The translations under genes and the position numbers were made by a program. Below, piece after piece: positions 2 through 12,598 of a stretch of DNA of 20,452 nucleotides; position 1 is the first letter of the stretch, and every line of letters begins with the position of its first letter. The stretch lies in the IMG/VR virus record IMGVR_UViG_3300034118_001642, positions 1 to 20,452 of that record. One strand, given 5' to 3'. Below the pieces are notes generated by a model. The model was not told where the DNA came from and did not search any database. It worked only from the letters and a program-made list of their open reading frames with translations. Source of the stretch: a virus.

Positions 2-586
2 AAAGCGGTGTACCAAGCACTGGCGGATCATGGCGCCACGATGACTCCTGCAGAGCTGGCAGGCATCGTCGGCAAGAGCGACGCCAACGTCAAGAAGATG
101 CTGTCCCGCCTCGTTCAAGACCAGCTTGTCGAAAAGGTCGGCTATGGTCGATACAAGGCAATCACTCTTTCATCCCCTACTACTACTAATAACGGTTACT
201 CTGGTTATTCTAGTAACTCTGGTTACTCTGGTTACTCTGGTTACTCTTCAGGTGAGAGTAACTCAAATGTTGATAGAAGAGTAACCGAAGAGTTACCAAG
301 AGTAACCGGGAGTAACTCAAGAGTAACTACGGGGTTTGAGGCAGTAGAATCATCTGAAACGACCAAGAGTAACCAGAGTAACCAATTATTGTATAAGGAT
401 GCCATCATCACGGCATTGGGACGCAAAGTGGTTCTGGAAATCATGCTTCTCCCAAACATCGCACGATCTCCAGAATTCCCAACAATTCGAGCAACGCTCG
501 AGGCGATGTGCGACAGCGGAGAGCTGGTGAAGCAGGATACCCCGCGAGGCCCTGCATATCGCATTGCGGCCATCGCCCCATCATAA
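2..586 (+). CDS. Replication-type protein with two winged-helix-like regions (5' partial)
   Basis: The frame is open to the left edge, so the true start lies upstream; the GTG at 8 is probably an internal valine. The first ~50 residues read as a winged helix-turn-helix (TPAELAGIVGKSDANVKKML, then a basic LVEKVGYGRYK wing). The last ~60 residues also look winged-helix-like (FPTIRATLEAMCDSGELVKQ). Between them lies a Ser/Gly/Tyr/Asn-rich linker of about 75 residues, encoded by the repeat array at 194-383. This kind of C-terminal winged helix is common on phage AAA/RepA-type helicases and on replication initiators. The design of DNA-binding domain, linker encoded by repeats, second domain recalls lambda O. 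Exact family is unknown because the N-terminus is outside the window. Confidence 0.7.
   Translation, partial: KAVYQALADHGATMTPAELAGIVGKSDANVKKMLSRLVQDQLVEKVGYGRYKAITLSSPTTTNNGYSGYSSNSGYSGYSGYSSGESNSNVDRRVTEELPRVTGSNSRVTTGFEAVESSETTKSNQSNQLLYKDAIITALGRKVVLEIMLLPNIARSPEFPTIRATLEAMCDSGELVKQDTPRGPAYRIAAIAPS
194..247 (+). repeat. Iteron-like array, forward block (GGTTACTCT x6)
   Basis: Six head-to-tail 9-mers at 194, 203, 212, 221, 230 and 239. Four are exact GGTTACTCT, one is GGTTATTCT and one is a degenerate AGTAACTCT. They lie in the linker of the replication-type gene, where they encode Gly-Tyr-Ser triplets. The region is about 38% G+C by hand count of line 181-240, well below the surrounding genes. 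The arrangement is that of replication-initiator binding sites. Confidence 0.75.
255..383 (-). repeat. Iteron-like array, inverted block (AGAGTAACC on + strand, ~8 copies)
   Basis: The reverse complement of the preceding repeat occurs at 255, 278, 289, 299, 309, 320, 366 and 375. Copies at 278, 299, 366 and 375 are exact AGAGTAACC; the others differ at one or two positions. Spacing is irregular, with some 9-11 bp steps. The copies fall in different reading frames (Arg-Val-Thr at 278, 299 and 320; Ser-Asn-Gln at 366 and 375), so the conserved unit is DNA and not protein. An AT-rich stretch follows at about 384-397, as expected beside an unwinding element. Confidence 0.72.
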
Positions 587-4138: not shown

Positions 4139-4335
4139 CACAGAAAATCATCAGTTGCATTGTCCGTCTATTTCTGTACTTCCGTGCACGCATTCACTAC
4201 AGCGAGGACGGCACGCAAATCATCGTGCGTTTTGACCGACACGGGCAACTCGTTTGGGTGGCAGACCTGAAGTCCAAGTTGTTTGCACTGCTGGACAAAA
4301 TCGAATCATGGAGGAGCAACAATGATTCTCAATGA
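4135..4335 (+). CDS. Hypothetical small basic protein
   Basis: A 66-residue protein overlapping the previous gene by ATGA and the dCTP deaminase start by 14 bp. The N-terminus is amphipathic and basic (IISCIVRLFLYFRARIHY), followed by short strands and a C-terminal helix. Its low G+C matches the preceding gene, which suggests they moved together. Function unknown. Confidence 0.55.
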   Translation: MTQKIISCIVRLFLYFRARIHYSEDGTQIIVRFDRHGQLVWVADLKSKLFALLDKIESWRSNNDSQ

Positions 4336-4867
4336 CCGACAAATCACCGACCTCGCCGAGCGTGGCATGATTGCGCCGTTTGCTCCGATGGCCAAGCGAG
4401 GCGGCGTCATCAGCTACGGCGTGACGTCGTTCGGCTATGACATGCGAGTGGCGGACGAGTGGATTCGCTACGTGGGCGAGTACTCCACGCTTGACCCTAA
4501 GCACGTCACCGCTTCCCGCACCGTGTCGCACCGTGCCGACGCCATCACGCTCGATCCGGGCGACTTTGTGCTGTGCCGGAGCGTCGAGCACTTCGTCATT
4601 CCCGAGGATGTCATGGTCGTGGTCGTGGGCAAGTCGACGTACGCACGCTGTGGCATCATCGTGAATGTAACTCCGCTCGAGCCCGGGTGGACGGGGCATG
4701 TCACCATTGAGCTGAGCAACACGAACACCGTGCCGGTCGTGGTCTATGCCAATGAGGGCATTGCACAGTGCCTGTTCTACCACGGCGAGCGCCCCGCCGT
4801 GACCTATGCCGACAAGCAGGGCAAGTACCAAGGCCAGAGCGGCGTGGTTCTGCCGAGGGTGGACTGA
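4322..4867 (+). CDS. dcd: dCTP deaminase
   Basis: A 181-residue protein with the whole family signature. MILNDRQI opens the trimeric dUTPase-like fold; SYGVTSFGYDMR is at 31-42. VGKSTYARCGIIVNVTPLEP (102-121) carries nucleotide-binding residues. GHVTIE ends in the likely catalytic Glu130, YANEGIAQ is at 142-149, and KYQGQ (168-172) closes the C-terminal lid. It deaminates dCTP to dUTP, a step to dTTP. No separate dUTPase is visible, so it may be a bifunctional deaminase/dUTPase, which this sequence cannot settle. GGAGCAAC precedes the ATG. The stop overlaps the thyX start (TGATG), so the two are coupled. Confidence 0.94.
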   Translation: MILNDRQITDLAERGMIAPFAPMAKRGGVISYGVTSFGYDMRVADEWIRYVGEYSTLDPKHVTASRTVSHRADAITLDPGDFVLCRSVEHFVIPEDVMVVVVGKSTYARCGIIVNVTPLEPGWTGHVTIELSNTNTVPVVVYANEGIAQCLFYHGERPAVTYADKQGKYQGQSGVVLPRVD

Positions 4868-5499
4868 TGGTAACCTACATCGCCGACAGCGTGATGCCGG
4901 GCATGACGATGGAAGAGCACGTTGCCTACATGGCACGCATCTCCAATCCCGGCAATCAGCATCACCACGACACCGCTCCCCGCCTCGTGAAGTATCTGGC
5001 GACGCATCAGCACTGGTCGCCGTTTGAGATGGTGTCAATCACAATGCAGATTGACACCACGCGCGACATTGCACGACAAATCCTGAGGCATCGTAGCTTC
5101 AGCTTCCAGGAGTTCAGCCAGCGCTACTCCGTCGCTGACCTCGGCGTGACCATCCGTGAGGCACGGCTCCAGGACAACAAGAATCGACAAAGCTCCCTCG
5201 AGGTGGACGACCCCGCCTTGCAAAACGCATGGGCGATGTGGCAGGAGCGAGTCGCCGAGACCGCACAGCACGCCTACGAGTGGGCACTCAGTCACGGCAT
5301 CGCCAAGGAAGTAGCAAGAGCCGTGCTTCCCGAGGGGCTGACGATGTCCCGCATGTACATGGCGGGGACGTTGCGGAGCTGGATACACTACTGTCAGCTC
5401 CGCATGAGCAATGGTACACAGAAGGAACACCGCATCATCGCCGAGCAGGCATGGCGGCACATTGTCGAGCGAATGCCAAGCGTGGAGGGGCTGGGATAA
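4867..5499 (+). CDS. thyX: Flavin-dependent thymidylate synthase ThyX
   Basis: A 210-residue protein with the ThyX hallmark RHRSFSFQEFSQRY at 74-87 (RHRxxSxxExSxRY), which binds FAD and dUMP. Upstream HWSPFE (49-54) is the usual conserved loop. The C-terminal part has SWIHYCQLR and QKEHR, equivalent to the arginine-rich substrate loop that normally reads QxEIR. It methylates dUMP to dTMP using methylene-tetrahydrofolate, FADH2 and NADPH. Together with the coupled dCTP deaminase it gives the phage its own dTMP supply. Length is normal for phage ThyX. Confidence 0.95.
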   Translation: MVTYIADSVMPGMTMEEHVAYMARISNPGNQHHHDTAPRLVKYLATHQHWSPFEMVSITMQIDTTRDIARQILRHRSFSFQEFSQRYSVADLGVTIREARLQDNKNRQSSLEVDDPALQNAWAMWQERVAETAQHAYEWALSHGIAKEVARAVLPEGLTMSRMYMAGTLRSWIHYCQLRMSNGTQKEHRIIAEQAWRHIVERMPSVEGLG

Positions 5500-6924: not shown

Positions 6925-8044
6925 TGGCAAGTCGTACGCCGGAGCGCTCAAAGTGCTTACCATGCCCATGCACAGCAAAGCCATCGTGGCGGCGCCGTCG
7001 TACGAGAACATTCGCAACGGCTCGCTCCGCACGTTGCTCAATCTTATCTCTGAGTTTGAGCGCCGTAGCGGCATGACGATTCTTGACGGAAAGCCTCGAT
7101 TGTCAGCGCCGTACATGATCCGTCTCATCGGTGACCGGGAAATTGTGTTCTTTTCTGAGAACAACTTCAATTTGGTGCGTGGTATGGAGGCGGCGCTGTG
7201 CTGGATAGACGAAGCGGGGCACATGGATGAGTACATCGACGGCATGAACACGTTGTGGACGGTGGCACTGGGTCGACTCAATCAAGCGCCAGGGCAAATC
7301 ATATTGACCTCATCGCCAAACTTTAAGAAGCCGTGGTCGTCAAACCTCTTCCGTGACAACGCCCACGATCCGGAGTACGAAACCATCTTCGCTTCAACGT
7401 TGGACAACCACTTTTTGAGCGAGGAGTACAAAGCCTCACTGAGGAAGAACTACACCAGTGAGATGTACGCACAGGAAGTCCTTGGGCAGGACATTAACCC
7501 GTCAGGGAGTTTGTTCAAGCGCCATTGGTTCACCGTAGTGCCCACCGCTCCGCAAGGTCTGACGTGGTCTCGGTACTGGGACTTGGCCGCCTCGACCAAG
7601 CAGAGCGCCGACTACAGCGCCTCCGTGCGGGTCGCTCTGCATGACGGTGTGCTGTACATCGCCGACGGCATCAAGATGAAAGCGGAGTGGCCCGATGTGC
7701 GCAAAGTCATCGTTGCCACCGCTCTTGCCGAGCAGGGCACGGTGCTCGGCATCGAAGAGGCGTTGCACGGCTTGGCGGCAGTGCAAGAGTTGCGACGCAT
7801 GCCAGAGCTAACGGCGACCACGTTGCGAGGCATCAAGGTGGACAAGGACAAACAGAGCCGAGCGATGCCGTGGGCGGCACGTGCCGAAGCGGGAGCGGTG
7901 CGCATCGTGGCAGGGAGCTGGGTCAAGGATTTTATTGACGAAGTGGTGGCGTTCCCGAGCGCACCACACGACGACTATGTAGACGCCGCAAGCGGAGCCG
8001 TCGCCATGGCTGCGCGGCCGAAGATTCGATGGGAGATACTATGA
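6851..8044 (+). CDS. terL: Terminase large subunit
   Basis: A 397-residue packaging motor. The ATPase part has Walker A GGIRSGKS at 21-28 and Walker B ALCWIDEA with Asp120-Glu121, then a coupling motif TSSPN at 153-157. The nuclease part has YWDLAAS (Asp244), GIEEALHG (Glu302/303) and HDDYVDAASG (Asp374/375 and Asp378), which are the metal ligands of the RNase H-like fold. I chose ATG 6851 because the frame upstream, open from 6755, reads as low-complexity sequence out of frame with terS. ATG 6869 is also possible. The overlap with terS is 74 bp. The stop overlaps the portal start by ATGA. Confidence 0.92.
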   Translation: MLLPHQMRFLQSKAKYIYYKGGIRSGKSYAGALKVLTMPMHSKAIVAAPSYENIRNGSLRTLLNLISEFERRSGMTILDGKPRLSAPYMIRLIGDREIVFFSENNFNLVRGMEAALCWIDEAGHMDEYIDGMNTLWTVALGRLNQAPGQIILTSSPNFKKPWSSNLFRDNAHDPEYETIFASTLDNHFLSEEYKASLRKNYTSEMYAQEVLGQDINPSGSLFKRHWFTVVPTAPQGLTWSRYWDLAASTKQSADYSASVRVALHDGVLYIADGIKMKAEWPDVRKVIVATALAEQGTVLGIEEALHGLAAVQELRRMPELTATTLRGIKVDKDKQSRAMPWAARAEAGAVRIVAGSWVKDFIDEVVAFPSAPHDDYVDAASGAVAMAARPKIRWEIL

Positions 8045-10086
8045 CGCTGAACTCGTTGCCCGCATGGTTCGAGCAACTCCGCCGCGGCGGTCGCATCGTC
8101 ACCACTGCGGACGCCTACAGTGTGTCCCCACTGCTGTACCGCGCCACCAACTTACGCGCTGATGCGCTCAGCTCCATTCCGTACCGACTGACGTACAACG
8201 ATGTCGAACAGGATTGGCCATTCGTGCAAAGCTTTCCTCAGCTCCTCAAGGACATTGAGCGATCGCTCTGTCTGACGGGCGGTGCGTACCTCTACAAAAT
8301 CTACAAGGGGAAACGCCTTGTGGGCTTTGTCCCGCTCAATCCCACCACGATGAACGTGGCACTCATGACGGACAAAGCAACGCTCGAAAACCCGCTTTTG
8401 GGCGCATCGTTCGTGCAGAGCATCAACGGCAAATCGTATGGGCCGTGGACGGTGAACGAGGTCGTTTATTTTCGTGAACCCAGCTACCTCGACGATATCG
8501 GGCCGGGCATCGCTCCGGCACACGTGGCACTCAGCAACGCCAAGCTGGAGCACTACCTCAGCCGCTTTGCCTCGGCATTTTTCGAGGGCGGCGCACAGCC
8601 GGTTACCATCATGAACCTCCCCGAGCACATGGACGAAGCCGAGTTCCAGCGCTTCCGTACAGAAATGCGCTCAACCATCGGCGGCGGGATTATCAATGCG
8701 TTCAAGATGATTTTCATGCGAGCCCCGGACATTAAGATTGAGCAACTCACGCCGCCCATCAACTCCCTGCAGATGCCCGAGCTATACGAGCGGGTGATTA
8801 CCAGCGTGGGCATGGCGTACGGCGTGCCCCGCACCATGCTCGAGGCATCAGCGGCGAACTACGCAACGGCAGAATCTGACCGGCAATCGTTTTGGCGGGA
8901 AACCATCATTCCCCGCTTGAGCCTGTACGAAGCGGTGCTCAATGCACAGGTCTTCGCTCCGCTTGGCTGGGAAATCAGCTTTACTCCGGAGATGCTCGAC
9001 GTGATGCAGGTGGACGAGGCAAGCCGTGCCGGGTCACTGCTCCAGCTTGTGCAAGCCGGCGTCCCGCTTCGTGGAGCGATGACGATTTTGGGGTATGACC
9101 AAATCGAAGAGGCGCTTGGCCCCGCCCCCACACCGCTTGCATTGCCAGAACCGCCACCGCCAGAGCCGACCCCACCTGCACTGCCTGACCCTGCCACGGA
9201 TGCGCCAAGCGATGCGGCGGCGATGCGCTCCGCCGAATTTGAGCTCCTCGCCAAAAAGCTCGAGCGGCGCATCAAGGCAGGGAAGTCTTTGCAGTGCAGT
9301 TTCAAGAGCGACATCCTCAGCGATGACGACATCGCCAGCGTCATGGAGCGACTCAGCGACGGCATGACGGTGAGCGATGTGCGCACGGTGGTTGACGCAG
9401 TCAAAGCCGAGGACATGACGCCAGAGGAAAAAAGCATTTTTGACCGCCTCATCGGACCACTGACCGCACGAGGTGAGCGCTGGGCACGGCGCATCATGCG
9501 AGGCGAGGACATCAGCGACGCCGAGGGCAAAGTGAGCGATATCACCGCTCCGGTACTCAGTGATGAGCTGGGCAAGGTCATGGGTGGACGCATCGATAGA
9601 CTTGGCACGCAGTTTCAGCCCATCGACCCGACTGAGGCCAGCGACATCGTGCAGGACTGGCTGTTCGAGTACGTGCCCGAGCGCAACCGACAGCTGGATG
9701 CGTCAACCATCTCTGTACTCAAAAAGGCGATTGCCGCCTACCGCACCACGCCGGGCATGACGATACAGGATGTGATGCGCAAAGTTGCTCCGGCGACGGA
9801 TCGGGCCCGTGCTCGAAGCATCGCTATCACTGAGGTCACCCGTGCGGCGGCGCAGGCTGAGGTAGACTATCAGCGCTATTTGGGCGGGAAGGGGATTTTG
9901 ATGGAGCGCACGTGGATAACGAACGTCGATGAAAAGGTCTGTCCAACGTGCGGACCACTGCATAACCTTGTCGAAGACGAAGTCACCTCCACGTATCCGC
10001 AGGGCTGGATTATGGAGTACCCCGAGGGTCCGCCAGCGCATGTCAACTGCAGATGCTCGACTGCACTCACGGTGGTGCGCCGATGA
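8041..10086 (+). CDS. Portal protein fused to MuF-type head morphogenesis domain
   Basis: A 681-residue fusion. Residues 1-~355 are a HK97-type portal (SPLLYRATNLRADALSSIPY near the start; MAYGVPRTMLE and a tunnel-type helix later). A proline-rich linker follows at ~361-390. Residues ~390-580 are helical and acidic. Residues 590-681 are a Mu gpF-like domain: AITEVTRAAAQAE, Asp630, VCPTC (Cys634/637), PPAHVNCRC (His667, Cys670/672). The portal dodecamer is the DNA channel; MuF-type domains act in head assembly or are injected. The start is the ATG overlapping the terL stop. Confidence 0.9.
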   Translation: MTLNSLPAWFEQLRRGGRIVTTADAYSVSPLLYRATNLRADALSSIPYRLTYNDVEQDWPFVQSFPQLLKDIERSLCLTGGAYLYKIYKGKRLVGFVPLNPTTMNVALMTDKATLENPLLGASFVQSINGKSYGPWTVNEVVYFREPSYLDDIGPGIAPAHVALSNAKLEHYLSRFASAFFEGGAQPVTIMNLPEHMDEAEFQRFRTEMRSTIGGGIINAFKMIFMRAPDIKIEQLTPPINSLQMPELYERVITSVGMAYGVPRTMLEASAANYATAESDRQSFWRETIIPRLSLYEAVLNAQVFAPLGWEISFTPEMLDVMQVDEASRAGSLLQLVQAGVPLRGAMTILGYDQIEEALGPAPTPLALPEPPPPEPTPPALPDPATDAPSDAAAMRSAEFELLAKKLERRIKAGKSLQCSFKSDILSDDDIASVMERLSDGMTVSDVRTVVDAVKAEDMTPEEKSIFDRLIGPLTARGERWARRIMRGEDISDAEGKVSDITAPVLSDELGKVMGGRIDRLGTQFQPIDPTEASDIVQDWLFEYVPERNRQLDASTISVLKKAIAAYRTTPGMTIQDVMRKVAPATDRARARSIAITEVTRAAAQAEVDYQRYLGGKGILMERTWITNVDEKVCPTCGPLHNLVEDEVTSTYPQGWIMEYPEGPPAHVNCRCSTALTVVRR

Positions 10087-10550
10087 TGAGCGTAGAGGTG
10101 ACCAAACTCGGCATCGATTTGTCCAAAGCAATTGGCGACGTGGTGACATCGGTCAGCCTCACCTACGCCAAGGAAGTGCAAGGTCGCTTGCAGAAAGCGA
10201 CGCCGCCGAAACCAAGACCCGGCTCTATGGTGTGGAAGAGCCAAAAGCAACGCCGCTTTGTCATGGCGATGATAGCACAGGGAAAAATCAAAGTCCCGTA
10301 CGAACGTGGTCAGGGCAACGGACTTCGGGGTAGCCAGTCGCTCAACCGCGGCTACCGCGTCGACAAAGAGGGGCTCGAAGCCGTGCTGTACAATGCAGCT
10401 TCGTATGCGCCCTACGTCGTCGGTGACCAGCAAGCACAGATACACCGAGACCGCTGGGCGACAGCGATGCAGGTCGCCGCCGACATCGCACGAGACGGCA
10501 TACTCGACCAGGTGGTTGAGGATGCACTACGGAAAGCGGGGCTATCATGA
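10083..10550 (+). CDS. Hypothetical virion-morphogenesis protein (possibly HK97 gp10-like)
   Basis: A 155-residue protein overlapping both neighbours by 4 bases. The N-terminal helix (SLTYAKEVQGRLQKATPPKP) and the segment ASYAPYVVGDQQAQIHRDRW resemble the small virion proteins of the HK97 gp10/Mu gpG group. Unlike the usual order it lies before the protease and capsid part. Assignment is tentative; a structural role is likely from position. Confidence 0.6.
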   Translation: MMSVEVTKLGIDLSKAIGDVVTSVSLTYAKEVQGRLQKATPPKPRPGSMVWKSQKQRRFVMAMIAQGKIKVPYERGQGNGLRGSQSLNRGYRVDKEGLEAVLYNAASYAPYVVGDQQAQIHRDRWATAMQVAADIARDGILDQVVEDALRKAGLS

Positions 10551-12598
10551 CCACCAAAGCCGAGAGCGATACGCACACGCCGCCGCAATCCGTGGCAGAC
10601 AATGCCCGCAGAGCCCTCGAAGTCCGAGCGGAGAAGCCACCGAGCCAGCGGGGCATGACCCCGGTCGGCCTTGCTCGAGCACGGCAGTTGGCCAATCGTC
10701 AGCCGGTGTCAGTCGCCACACTGCGCCGCATGGTCAGTTACTTTGCTCGCCATGAGGTAGACAAAGAGGGTGCGACGTGGGAGGAGCAGGGAGCAGGGTG
10801 GCAGGCGTGGATGGGCTGGGGAGGCGATGAGGGCTGGGCATGGGCTCGGCGCATCATCGAGGCGGAGGATACGAAGTCATTTGACGACCCCCATATAATG
10901 GAAATAGGAGGGAGATTACCAATGGATTACACAGTCAAGACACTGCCTACAACGGTGAAAGCGATTGGCGAGTACAGAATTAAGGGCTTGGGCATCGTGT
11001 TTGGTGGGTTCGACCTCGTCGGCGACCGATTCACTGCCGAAACTGACTTCGGCGGCTCAAGGCCATTCCAGGGCATGCCGGTCTACTACAATCACGCCAT
11101 GGACGGCATCAAGTCACAAATCGGCGAGGTTGCGACGTGGACTCCTACCGATGAGGGCATTGTCGTAGAAATCGAGCTGTACCGACGGCATCAGTATGTC
11201 GGCGAGGTGATGAAACTCGTCGAAGCTGGCGCACTCGGACTCAGCTCGGGCGCTGTAGCACACCTCGTCATGCGTGAGCCAATCAAGGGCGGCTACGAGA
11301 TGAAGCGCTGGCCCGCCGCTGAGATGAGTGTCACTCCCATTCCCGCGGAACCCCGTACCACACTGGGCGAAATTGCCAAGACCCCGGAGGACTTGGGCTT
11401 GGTCAAGAACATCAAAGTCAAGAGCACAGAGGTCGAGCCTGCGAGCATGGCTGCAGATGAGACGATGCCTGACGATACAGAGACTACACCAGACGCGGCC
11501 GAAGTGGCCACCGAATCACCAGAGGAGACCAAAGCCATGCCAGAGGGCATCATCGACAACGCTCGCAACGACGAGCCACAGGTAAAGGCGGCATTGCCTG
11601 CCGCTCCGTCCGAGAATCCGTTCGACAGCAACGAGTACCACCGTGCGTACAAGCGCTTCATCGATGTGAAAAATCCCATCGAAAAGGCGGAAGACAGCTA
11701 TGACGTACATCAGGTACTTCGCAACGCCACCAAAGCGTACGCCGTCAAGACGCAGACCGAGGGCACCAGCAACGACGGTGGGTTCACCGTGCCAACCGCA
11801 GTCAACCGCTCGATGGTCGCACGGCGTGACGAGTCGAGCCTGCTCGGGCAATTCCGCTTTATGCGCGTCACCACGGATACGTGGAAAGTGGTCGTGCCTG
11901 CACAGAGCACCAAGGCCGCGGCCGCGATTGTGGGCGAAGGCGTCACTGCCACTGCCAGCGAGCCGAACATCGCCAACACGAAGACCATCCAGCTCTACAA
12001 AGATACCTTGGAGTTTGCCATCACCGAGGAACTACTCGCCGACACCGCCAGCAACTACGAGGAATTCCTCATGAACGAAATCGCTCGCGCCATGGCGGTG
12101 AGCGTCAACACGTTCATCATCAAGGGAACGGGTAGCTCACAGCCCTACGGCATCTATGCCCGCGTGACCAACGACATCGCCCTCGGTGCTACCACGGCGA
12201 CCTCGGCGCAAGTGCTCAGCGTGAGCACGGGCATCAACGGCGCCTACATGACCAACGGCGAAACCGGCTGGGTGATGCGCAATGCGACCTGGGGCGTGGT
12301 ACGTGGTCTCGACCTCGCCAACACCGGCATGCTTCTGACCAGCATGGAGGGCGGCGTTCGTCGAATCGAGTCATGGCCAGTCGCTCTGAGTGAGCAGGTG
12401 GACGCCTACGGCACCAGCACCAACGAGCCACTCATCTTCGGAAACTTCTCATACTACGCCTTCGCCGAGCGCACCGCTGGGGTGCAGATTGAGCGCGACT
12501 ACAATCCCCGTACGGGCGTCACCTACATGATTGCCAAGTGGCGCTTTGGTGGCGATGTCACTCAGCCTGAAGCCTTCGCTATCGGCAAGCACGCCTAA
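10547..12598 (+). CDS. Fusion: N-terminal phage domain, prohead protease and HK97-type major capsid protein
   Basis: A 683-residue uninterrupted frame. Residues ~11-105 are a Trp/Arg-rich domain (PPQSVADNARRALEVRAEK; WQAWMGWGGDEGWAWA) often linked to phage head maturation proteins. Residues 126-~275 are a prohead protease with probable triad His183 (YYNHAMDG), Ser233 (GLSSGAV) and Glu259 (WPAAEMSVTPIPAE). Residues ~295-395 are an acidic, scaffold-like delta region. Residues ~396-683 are the HK97-fold capsid (GGFTVPTAVN; EFAITEELL; IIKGTG). Self-cleavage would free the capsid subunit. A strong internal AGGAGG before Met126 (ATG 10922) suggests a second, 558-residue product. Confidence 0.9.
   Translation: MTTKAESDTHTPPQSVADNARRALEVRAEKPPSQRGMTPVGLARARQLANRQPVSVATLRRMVSYFARHEVDKEGATWEEQGAGWQAWMGWGGDEGWAWARRIIEAEDTKSFDDPHIMEIGGRLPMDYTVKTLPTTVKAIGEYRIKGLGIVFGGFDLVGDRFTAETDFGGSRPFQGMPVYYNHAMDGIKSQIGEVATWTPTDEGIVVEIELYRRHQYVGEVMKLVEAGALGLSSGAVAHLVMREPIKGGYEMKRWPAAEMSVTPIPAEPRTTLGEIAKTPEDLGLVKNIKVKSTEVEPASMAADETMPDDTETTPDAAEVATESPEETKAMPEGIIDNARNDEPQVKAALPAAPSENPFDSNEYHRAYKRFIDVKNPIEKAEDSYDVHQVLRNATKAYAVKTQTEGTSNDGGFTVPTAVNRSMVARRDESSLLGQFRFMRVTTDTWKVVVPAQSTKAAAAIVGEGVTATASEPNIANTKTIQLYKDTLEFAITEELLADTASNYEEFLMNEIARAMAVSVNTFIIKGTGSSQPYGIYARVTNDIALGATTATSAQVLSVSTGINGAYMTNGETGWVMRNATWGVVRGLDLANTGMLLTSMEGGVRRIESWPVALSEQVDAYGTSTNEPLIFGNFSYYAFAERTAGVQIERDYNPRTGVTYMIAKWRFGGDVTQPEAFAIGKHA
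10880..10911 (+). promoter_or_regulatory. Repeated TTGACG-N7-TATAAT-N6-AGGAGG box, copy 2, inside the protease-capsid gene
   Basis: TTGACG (10881), TATAAT (10894) and AGGAGG (10906) recur with exactly the spacing seen before the amidase gene. The AGGAGG lies 10 bases before ATG 10922, where the protease domain begins. This points to internal transcription or translation of the protease-capsid part on its own. The TATAAT could be a -10 box, though the TTGACG is too near to act as its -35. Confidence 0.5.

Follow-up and report, generated by a model that had tools for sequence, protein, structure and literature searches.

The repeat array and the gene that carries it

The window analysed here, an IMG/VR record in its full length of 20,452 bases, is a phage fragment with its major genes all on the + strand, and its first gene raises the question of whether an ordered cluster of short repeats within the coding sequence of a replication protein serves the DNA or the peptide, and, if the DNA, whether it is the replication origin of the phage. 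The start of the record cuts this TOPRIM primase-helicase gene, leaving its 5′ part outside and its last 194 codons in the window as an open frame (positions 2–586, + strand); full-length relatives have ∼711–728 codons. The gene is intact in two viral contigs, in which the same region is 70% (L004/L044/L128) and 65% (L005/L071/L129) identical, and further homologues of the protein came from a profile search. No annotated phage or plasmid relative with more than 60% identity was found, and the 400 Chloroflexota genomes searched contained no close relative, only matches of ∼1e-41. The remainder of the record includes a virion gene set, with a portal protein fused to a head-morphogenesis domain (8029–10083) and a major capsid protein whose N-terminal part is protease-like (10547–12595), both identified by PHROG matches. 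Genes for a dCTP deaminase-like protein (4283–4864) and a ThyX thymidylate synthase (4768–5496), which belong to phage nucleotide metabolism, adjoin each other, their frames overlapping as listed.

The repeat unit is the 9-bp sequence GGTTACTCT. Four forward and four inverted copies are exact, five and seven are found when one mismatch is allowed, and six and eight when two are allowed; these 14 copies all lie inside positions 194–383, which bears out the count and order of about 14 copies, six forward and then eight inverted, given in the earlier note. The forward block (194–247, + strand) is composed of six units arranged head to tail (starting at 194, 203, 212, 221, 230, and 239) that encode (Gly/Ser)-(Tyr/Asn)-Ser. 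The first part of the inverted block (255–328, − strand) contains six AGAGTAACC copies, starting at 255, 278, 289, 299, 309, and 320, which occupy all three codon phases (RVT, SN, and ELP). The last inverted pair (366–383, − strand; starts at 366 and 375) encodes KSNQSN. Regular 9-bp spacing is confined to the forward block. Directly after the last pair lies AATTATTGTATAAGGATG (384–401, + strand), a candidate unwinding element of 18 bp with 78% A+T (41% in the window); the AT-rich stretch that had been reported to follow the array is therefore present but short.

All 11 occurrences of the core heptamer GTTACTC/GAGTAAC in the 20,452 bases fall within the array. When synonymous codons were resampled with the array peptide kept fixed and the phage's own codon usage applied, 5,000 trials averaged 0.54 cores and never exceeded 5, compared with the 11 observed. 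Each of the four Arg residues in the array peptide is encoded by AGA, a codon that accounts for 9 of the 292 Arg codons counted in other genes of the window. No DnaA boxes were found close to the array. Along this 20,452-base fragment, with the gene at its edge, the GC skew is weak and erratic and has no usable inflection.

Domain architecture of the protein

The domain order, taken from relatives, is TOPRIM primase, SF4 helicase, a first winged helix (wHTH1), the array-bearing linker, and a second winged helix (wHTH2). The full-length relative P0001 contains an AAA_25 (RecA/SF4) helicase (Pfam, 5e-24); PHROG 239, a DNA primase/helicase, is matched at 1.9e-16, a Pfam Toprim_2 match falls just below the cut-off, and the TOPRIM-site residues NGE and DCD are invariant in A4. 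The top Foldseek matches of the full-length AlphaFold2 model were T7 replisome gp4 chains (4.8e-6) and the DnaG primase domain (1.4e-4), with RSF1010 RepA (PDB 1g8y) lower among the matches. The helicase core of this model is of low confidence, and the assignment uses sequence and fold together; on both predictions, the protein is a T7 gp4-like TOPRIM primase joined to an SF4 (RSF1010 RepA-like) helicase.

The C-terminal 194 residues were modelled by AlphaFold2 as two winged helices (confidence 84–91) with a 68-residue disordered linker between them, and the Foldseek matches of this model were winged-helix DNA-binding proteins. The first domain, wHTH1 (2–160, + strand), directly follows the helicase core and is the proposed reader of the repeats; it is supported by weak Pfam matches of the HTH_24/TrmB/HTH_IclR type and by a pLDDT of 84–90. 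The linker (173–376, + strand; residues 58–125) is predicted to be disordered, with a pLDDT below 50, and its coding sequence bears the array, which supports the placement of the array in the linker of a replication gene. The second domain, wHTH2 (377–571, + strand; pLDDT 87–91), is little conserved among relatives and is only 16–20% identical between some of those with a common iteron type.

A partition (centromere-like) site is one function that these folds might bring to mind, as the plasmid segregation protein TubR is among the weak fold matches and short direct repeats right downstream of a phage repA can be parS (PMC7157519). However, the genes scanned in the window and in the flank of L004 include no recognised ParA/TubZ partner, the protein joins its DNA-binding domain to a helicase, and the record has the virion gene set of a phage, so that we regard a partition role as very unlikely.

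Forward and inverted copies drift together

An opposed array is present at the linker position in 11 of 11 homologues that reach the linker (31–71% identity over the stretch), and in all of them it lies within the coding region. The core is GTTACTC in the window, L128, and L129, GTTACTC with GTAACTC in L131, and GTCACTC with GTTACTC in L130, L133, and L134. In L132 it is GTTCACTC; L136, L137, and L140 combine GTAACTC with GTTCACTC, and L138 has mostly GTAACTC, with GTTCACTC in addition. Across these homologues the peptide encoded by the forward copies varies from GYS to GNS, SHS, VHS, or IHS, and the inverted copies, which encode RVT/RVN, SN/SE/SD/SY, or ELP, shift to the matching reverse complement of the forward variants. 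When the pairing of forward with inverted variants was permuted over six lineage groups, the actual combination ranked first among the 720 possible (p = 0.0014). The last inverted pair and the A+T element hold the same place in all homologues, with 61–78% A+T in the element versus 44–50% for genes. Linker length and Ser spacing are also conserved.

Because forward and inverted copies drift together while encoding different peptides, the sequence comparison indicates that the target of selection is the DNA, not the peptide. Matched drift is explicable by a site at which a single protein reads both strands, but not by a peptide. The earlier claim of selection on DNA is thus upheld by the strand-matched drift in 11 homologues, as is the expectation that the 9-mers persist while the linker peptide changes, here in a stronger form in which the copies of both strands change together. 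The conserved linker length and Ser spacing are what would speak for a functional Gly-Tyr-Ser/Arg-Val-Thr linker in which the DNA repeat is secondary, but the replacement of GYS by GNS, SHS, VHS, or IHS is matched in opposite-strand copies that encode other peptides, every Arg of the array uses the rare AGA codon, and the arrays of relatives run on beyond the stop codon. The strand-matched drift already contradicts selection on the peptide, which we consider extremely improbable. Hardly any credence can be given either to neutral tandem duplication by slippage: the forward block is indeed a perfect-period tandem array, and identical codons form collagen-like GYSG runs in other viral contigs, yet there are eight inverted copies with irregular spacing and in three codon phases, and order and strand are maintained in homologues with 31–71% identity, a conserved opposed layout that already contradicts slippage.

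In matrix comparisons, the iteron type correlated with wHTH1 (r = 0.57), wHTH2 (0.49), and the helicase (0.61), values that are not separable in this small set; assignment of the reader domain from these correlations was dropped, since all three parts track the iteron type. The pair L136 and L138, with wHTH2 98% identical, wHTH1 64% identical, and a different iteron in the inverted block, hints that wHTH1 may be the reader. As an observation in its own right, this pair, nearly identical in wHTH2 and diverged in wHTH1, looks like a case of module exchange within a gene.

A probable origin of replication

The locus combines DNA-selected short repeats, the gene of a DNA-binding replication protein, and an A+T element, as iteron origins in general do. 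We consider it probable that these repeats are the iterons of the phage's replication origin and that the protein acting on them is encoded by the very gene in which they lie. We infer origin function together with protein binding, a winged-helix reader, and strand opening, which would fit together as a one-piece replicator with TOPRIM primase, SF4 ring helicase, and winged helix in a single protein. Copies of the protein would bind both opposed blocks of 9-bp iterons through wHTH1, and this binding would crowd helicase subunits at the site. Strand opening would follow at the A+T-rich element next to the final pair of iterons, after which helicase rings would be loaded and the primase part would begin strands. 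The linker peptide would be a by-product, constrained only to stay open and flexible.

Comparison with known replication systems

The helicases of SaPI and SCCmec elements belong to another superfamily (SF3/MCM-like AAA+), and P4 α has an SF3 helicase, short iterons, and an origin outside the gene. The SaPI origin consists of short iterons beside the helicase gene and is read by the C-terminal domain of the helicase, and SCCmec Cch2 binds such repeats (PMC7581432). The resemblance lies in several short iterons that adjoin the helicase's own gene, as found in the window, in the homologues, and at the 3′ ends of related genes, and in a C-terminal domain that reads them, although C-terminal binding by the window protein is suggested by analogy. 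The SaPI and SCCmec origins are downstream of the gene, whereas the iterons described here are within the coding linker, and the helicase is not of the SaPI Rep superfamily but an AAA_25/T7 gp4-type SF4 helicase with a fused TOPRIM primase. P4 α contains a TOPRIM primase (PMC4234260) and unites primase, helicase, and C-terminal winged-helix origin binding on one chain, an arrangement that the window protein may share if the analogy extends to binding; TOPRIM and winged helix are present in it, and its helicase is SF4 instead of SF3. In RSF1010, the ring helicase RepA, the primase RepB′, and the iteron reader RepC act at one oriV (PMC4234260). RepA is a related SF4 ring helicase, but RSF1010 uses three separate proteins, which here are fused, with the iterons in the gene. 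The mechanism proposed above can be likened to RSF1010, with its three proteins, and to P4 α, with one (both in PMC4234260).

Other systems resemble the locus in the placement of the origin, here a probable one. In lambda, the origin is inside gene O (PMC6022878), and O dimers bind its four 19-bp iterons (PMC3985674); as in lambda, the coding sequence of the replication protein here includes both iterons and an A+T element. The analogy with lambda O drawn in the earlier note holds for this in-gene placement but not for kinship, as the gene encodes a primase-helicase with an AAA_25 helicase and not an O-type initiator. Lambda relies on the host for its helicase, whereas this phage encodes its own helicase-primase and has 14 copies of a 9-bp unit, split into two opposed blocks; other systems stand closer to it than lambda does. 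The origin is also inside the initiator gene in repABC plasmids, with oriV within repC, and in N15 repA, and cis preference has been reported for both (PMC3155836); repC has a large A+T region, and such an iteron array is not described there. ORF904 of pRN1 has a C-terminal winged helix, and the 3′ end of the gene contains its origin, a 100-nt stem-loop and explicitly not iterons (PMC4234260). Unlike the window protein, ORF904 is an archaeal prim-pol with an SF3 helicase.

Helicase-read iteron origins and in-gene origins have both been published (PMC7581432, PMC3155836, PMC6022878), and the proposal of a new origin type is not supported. In the open-licence literature, we found no description of GTTACTC iterons or of the origins of this helicase class, and the combination of an SF4 TOPRIM primase-helicase, opposed 9-bp iterons in the interdomain linker, and concerted drift is apparently undescribed there.

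Opposed arrays in related helicase loci

Related helicase loci in phages, plasmids, and genomes have opposed arrays of other heptamers, either in the gene or just past its stop codon. The Caldicellulosiruptor bescii plasmid pATHE01, an independent replicon, encodes a homologue of 719 aa, and at the same linker position, after the winged helix, this gene contains TTCACTC in six forward and several inverted copies. This opposed array (L142; NC_012036.1, 1738–1910) lies within an AAA ATPase gene of a small plasmid from a cultured thermophile.

The wider class was surveyed with a 13-sequence profile against ∼400 genomes from each of three phyla, those of G002 (Peptoniphilus), G004 (Atopobiaceae), and G005 (Chloroflexota), which yielded 62 loci (60 usable), including a few that suggested the pattern and some near-duplicates. 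Judged against simple Markov shuffles, 31 of the 60 loci have a short-repeat array after the helicase match (p ≤ 0.02), opposed in 23 of the 31; about half of the 60 are without a significant array by the exact-heptamer test. Strong arrays (score ≥ 6) were found downstream at 21 of the 60 loci versus upstream at 3 (Fisher p = 5.5e-5). The arrays are wholly within an open frame in ∼12 cases. The spacing between neighbouring copies is a multiple of three in 56 of 75 cases in coding arrays (55 of them exactly 9 bp) and in 22 of 50 in non-coding arrays (p = 7e-4, spacings inside one array being mutually dependent), a preference for multiples of three that is expected if a DNA site gets fitted to a reading frame. 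Five genomes supplied 19 further AAA_25 loci, which for the most part encode unrelated helicases and ATPases, and no comparable array was found at these; one of them has four GTTACTC copies in a single direction past the match.

The position of these arrays also bears on whether the repeats might be a regulatory site, for autorepression, copy-number control, or incompatibility, and not a replication start. Plasmid iterons often double as control elements, the winged helices of the protein have a repressor-like fold, and the array is located in its own gene. An operator, however, would be expected at the promoter, and the arrays of relatives are at the 3′ end, many just past the stop codon; moreover, fourteen copies beside an A+T element exceed the needs of an operator. 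A purely regulatory function is therefore unlikely, and we retain the reading of the array as an origin. Whether these loci form a single unnamed, phylum-spanning replicator class is a proposition on which we are evenly divided. Its members, found in phages, plasmids, and integrated elements, would combine an SF4 helicase, often with a primase, and a winged helix, and would have opposed cognate iterons at the 3′ end of their own gene, frequently in a coding linker; iteron and winged helix would diverge together into many private specificities, and the DNA site would write the linker peptide.

Searches with the GTTACTC heptamer

A GTTACTC scan of genomes gave 31 matches, mostly chance occurrences or dispersed hairpins. 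A scan for triple GTTACTC also returned arrays beside Prim-Pol, VapE, DnaG-like, and Cch-type genes, all found using that heptamer. We make no claim that GTTACTC is an iteron common to unrelated primases, given this ascertainment by the search heptamer and a reversed-heptamer control that gave 8 viral matches versus 15 for GTTACTC. Unrelated replication genes in L012, L050, L060, L066, L087, L110, and L126 (VapE, DnaG-like, AAA_25/RepB, Prim-Pol, and Cch HTH genes) have mixed-orientation GTTACTC arrays at their 3′ ends or close by, possibly through ascertainment only. An eight-copy mixed array also lies in non-coding DNA of a Peptoniphilus prophage-like region (L106, 6106–6625; identical in L125).

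Most single-orientation GTTACTC runs are GYSG repeats of the collagen type or VTP repeats, and such runs were set aside. Viral contigs (L007, L025, L031, L054, and others) encode long collagen-like proteins with GYSG(I)SG repeats whose genes contain GTTACTC in one orientation, and in other viral loci VTPVTP repeats contain the same letters, again in one orientation only. Such repeats constitute a class of false positives in iteron searches.

Implications

The cultured Caldicellulosiruptor system of pATHE01 is suited to testing the origin reading, and its array is a candidate origin for vector building. If the reading is true, tripeptide repeats such as GYS, VHS, IHS, TNP, TAN, and SST would be a by-product of the DNA and not protein features, and, for an entire class of replicators in phages and plasmids, the origin could be read from the helicase gene, without skew or mapping. 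Because site and reader share one gene and drift together, the family would also be a natural data set on how winged-helix DNA specificity changes.
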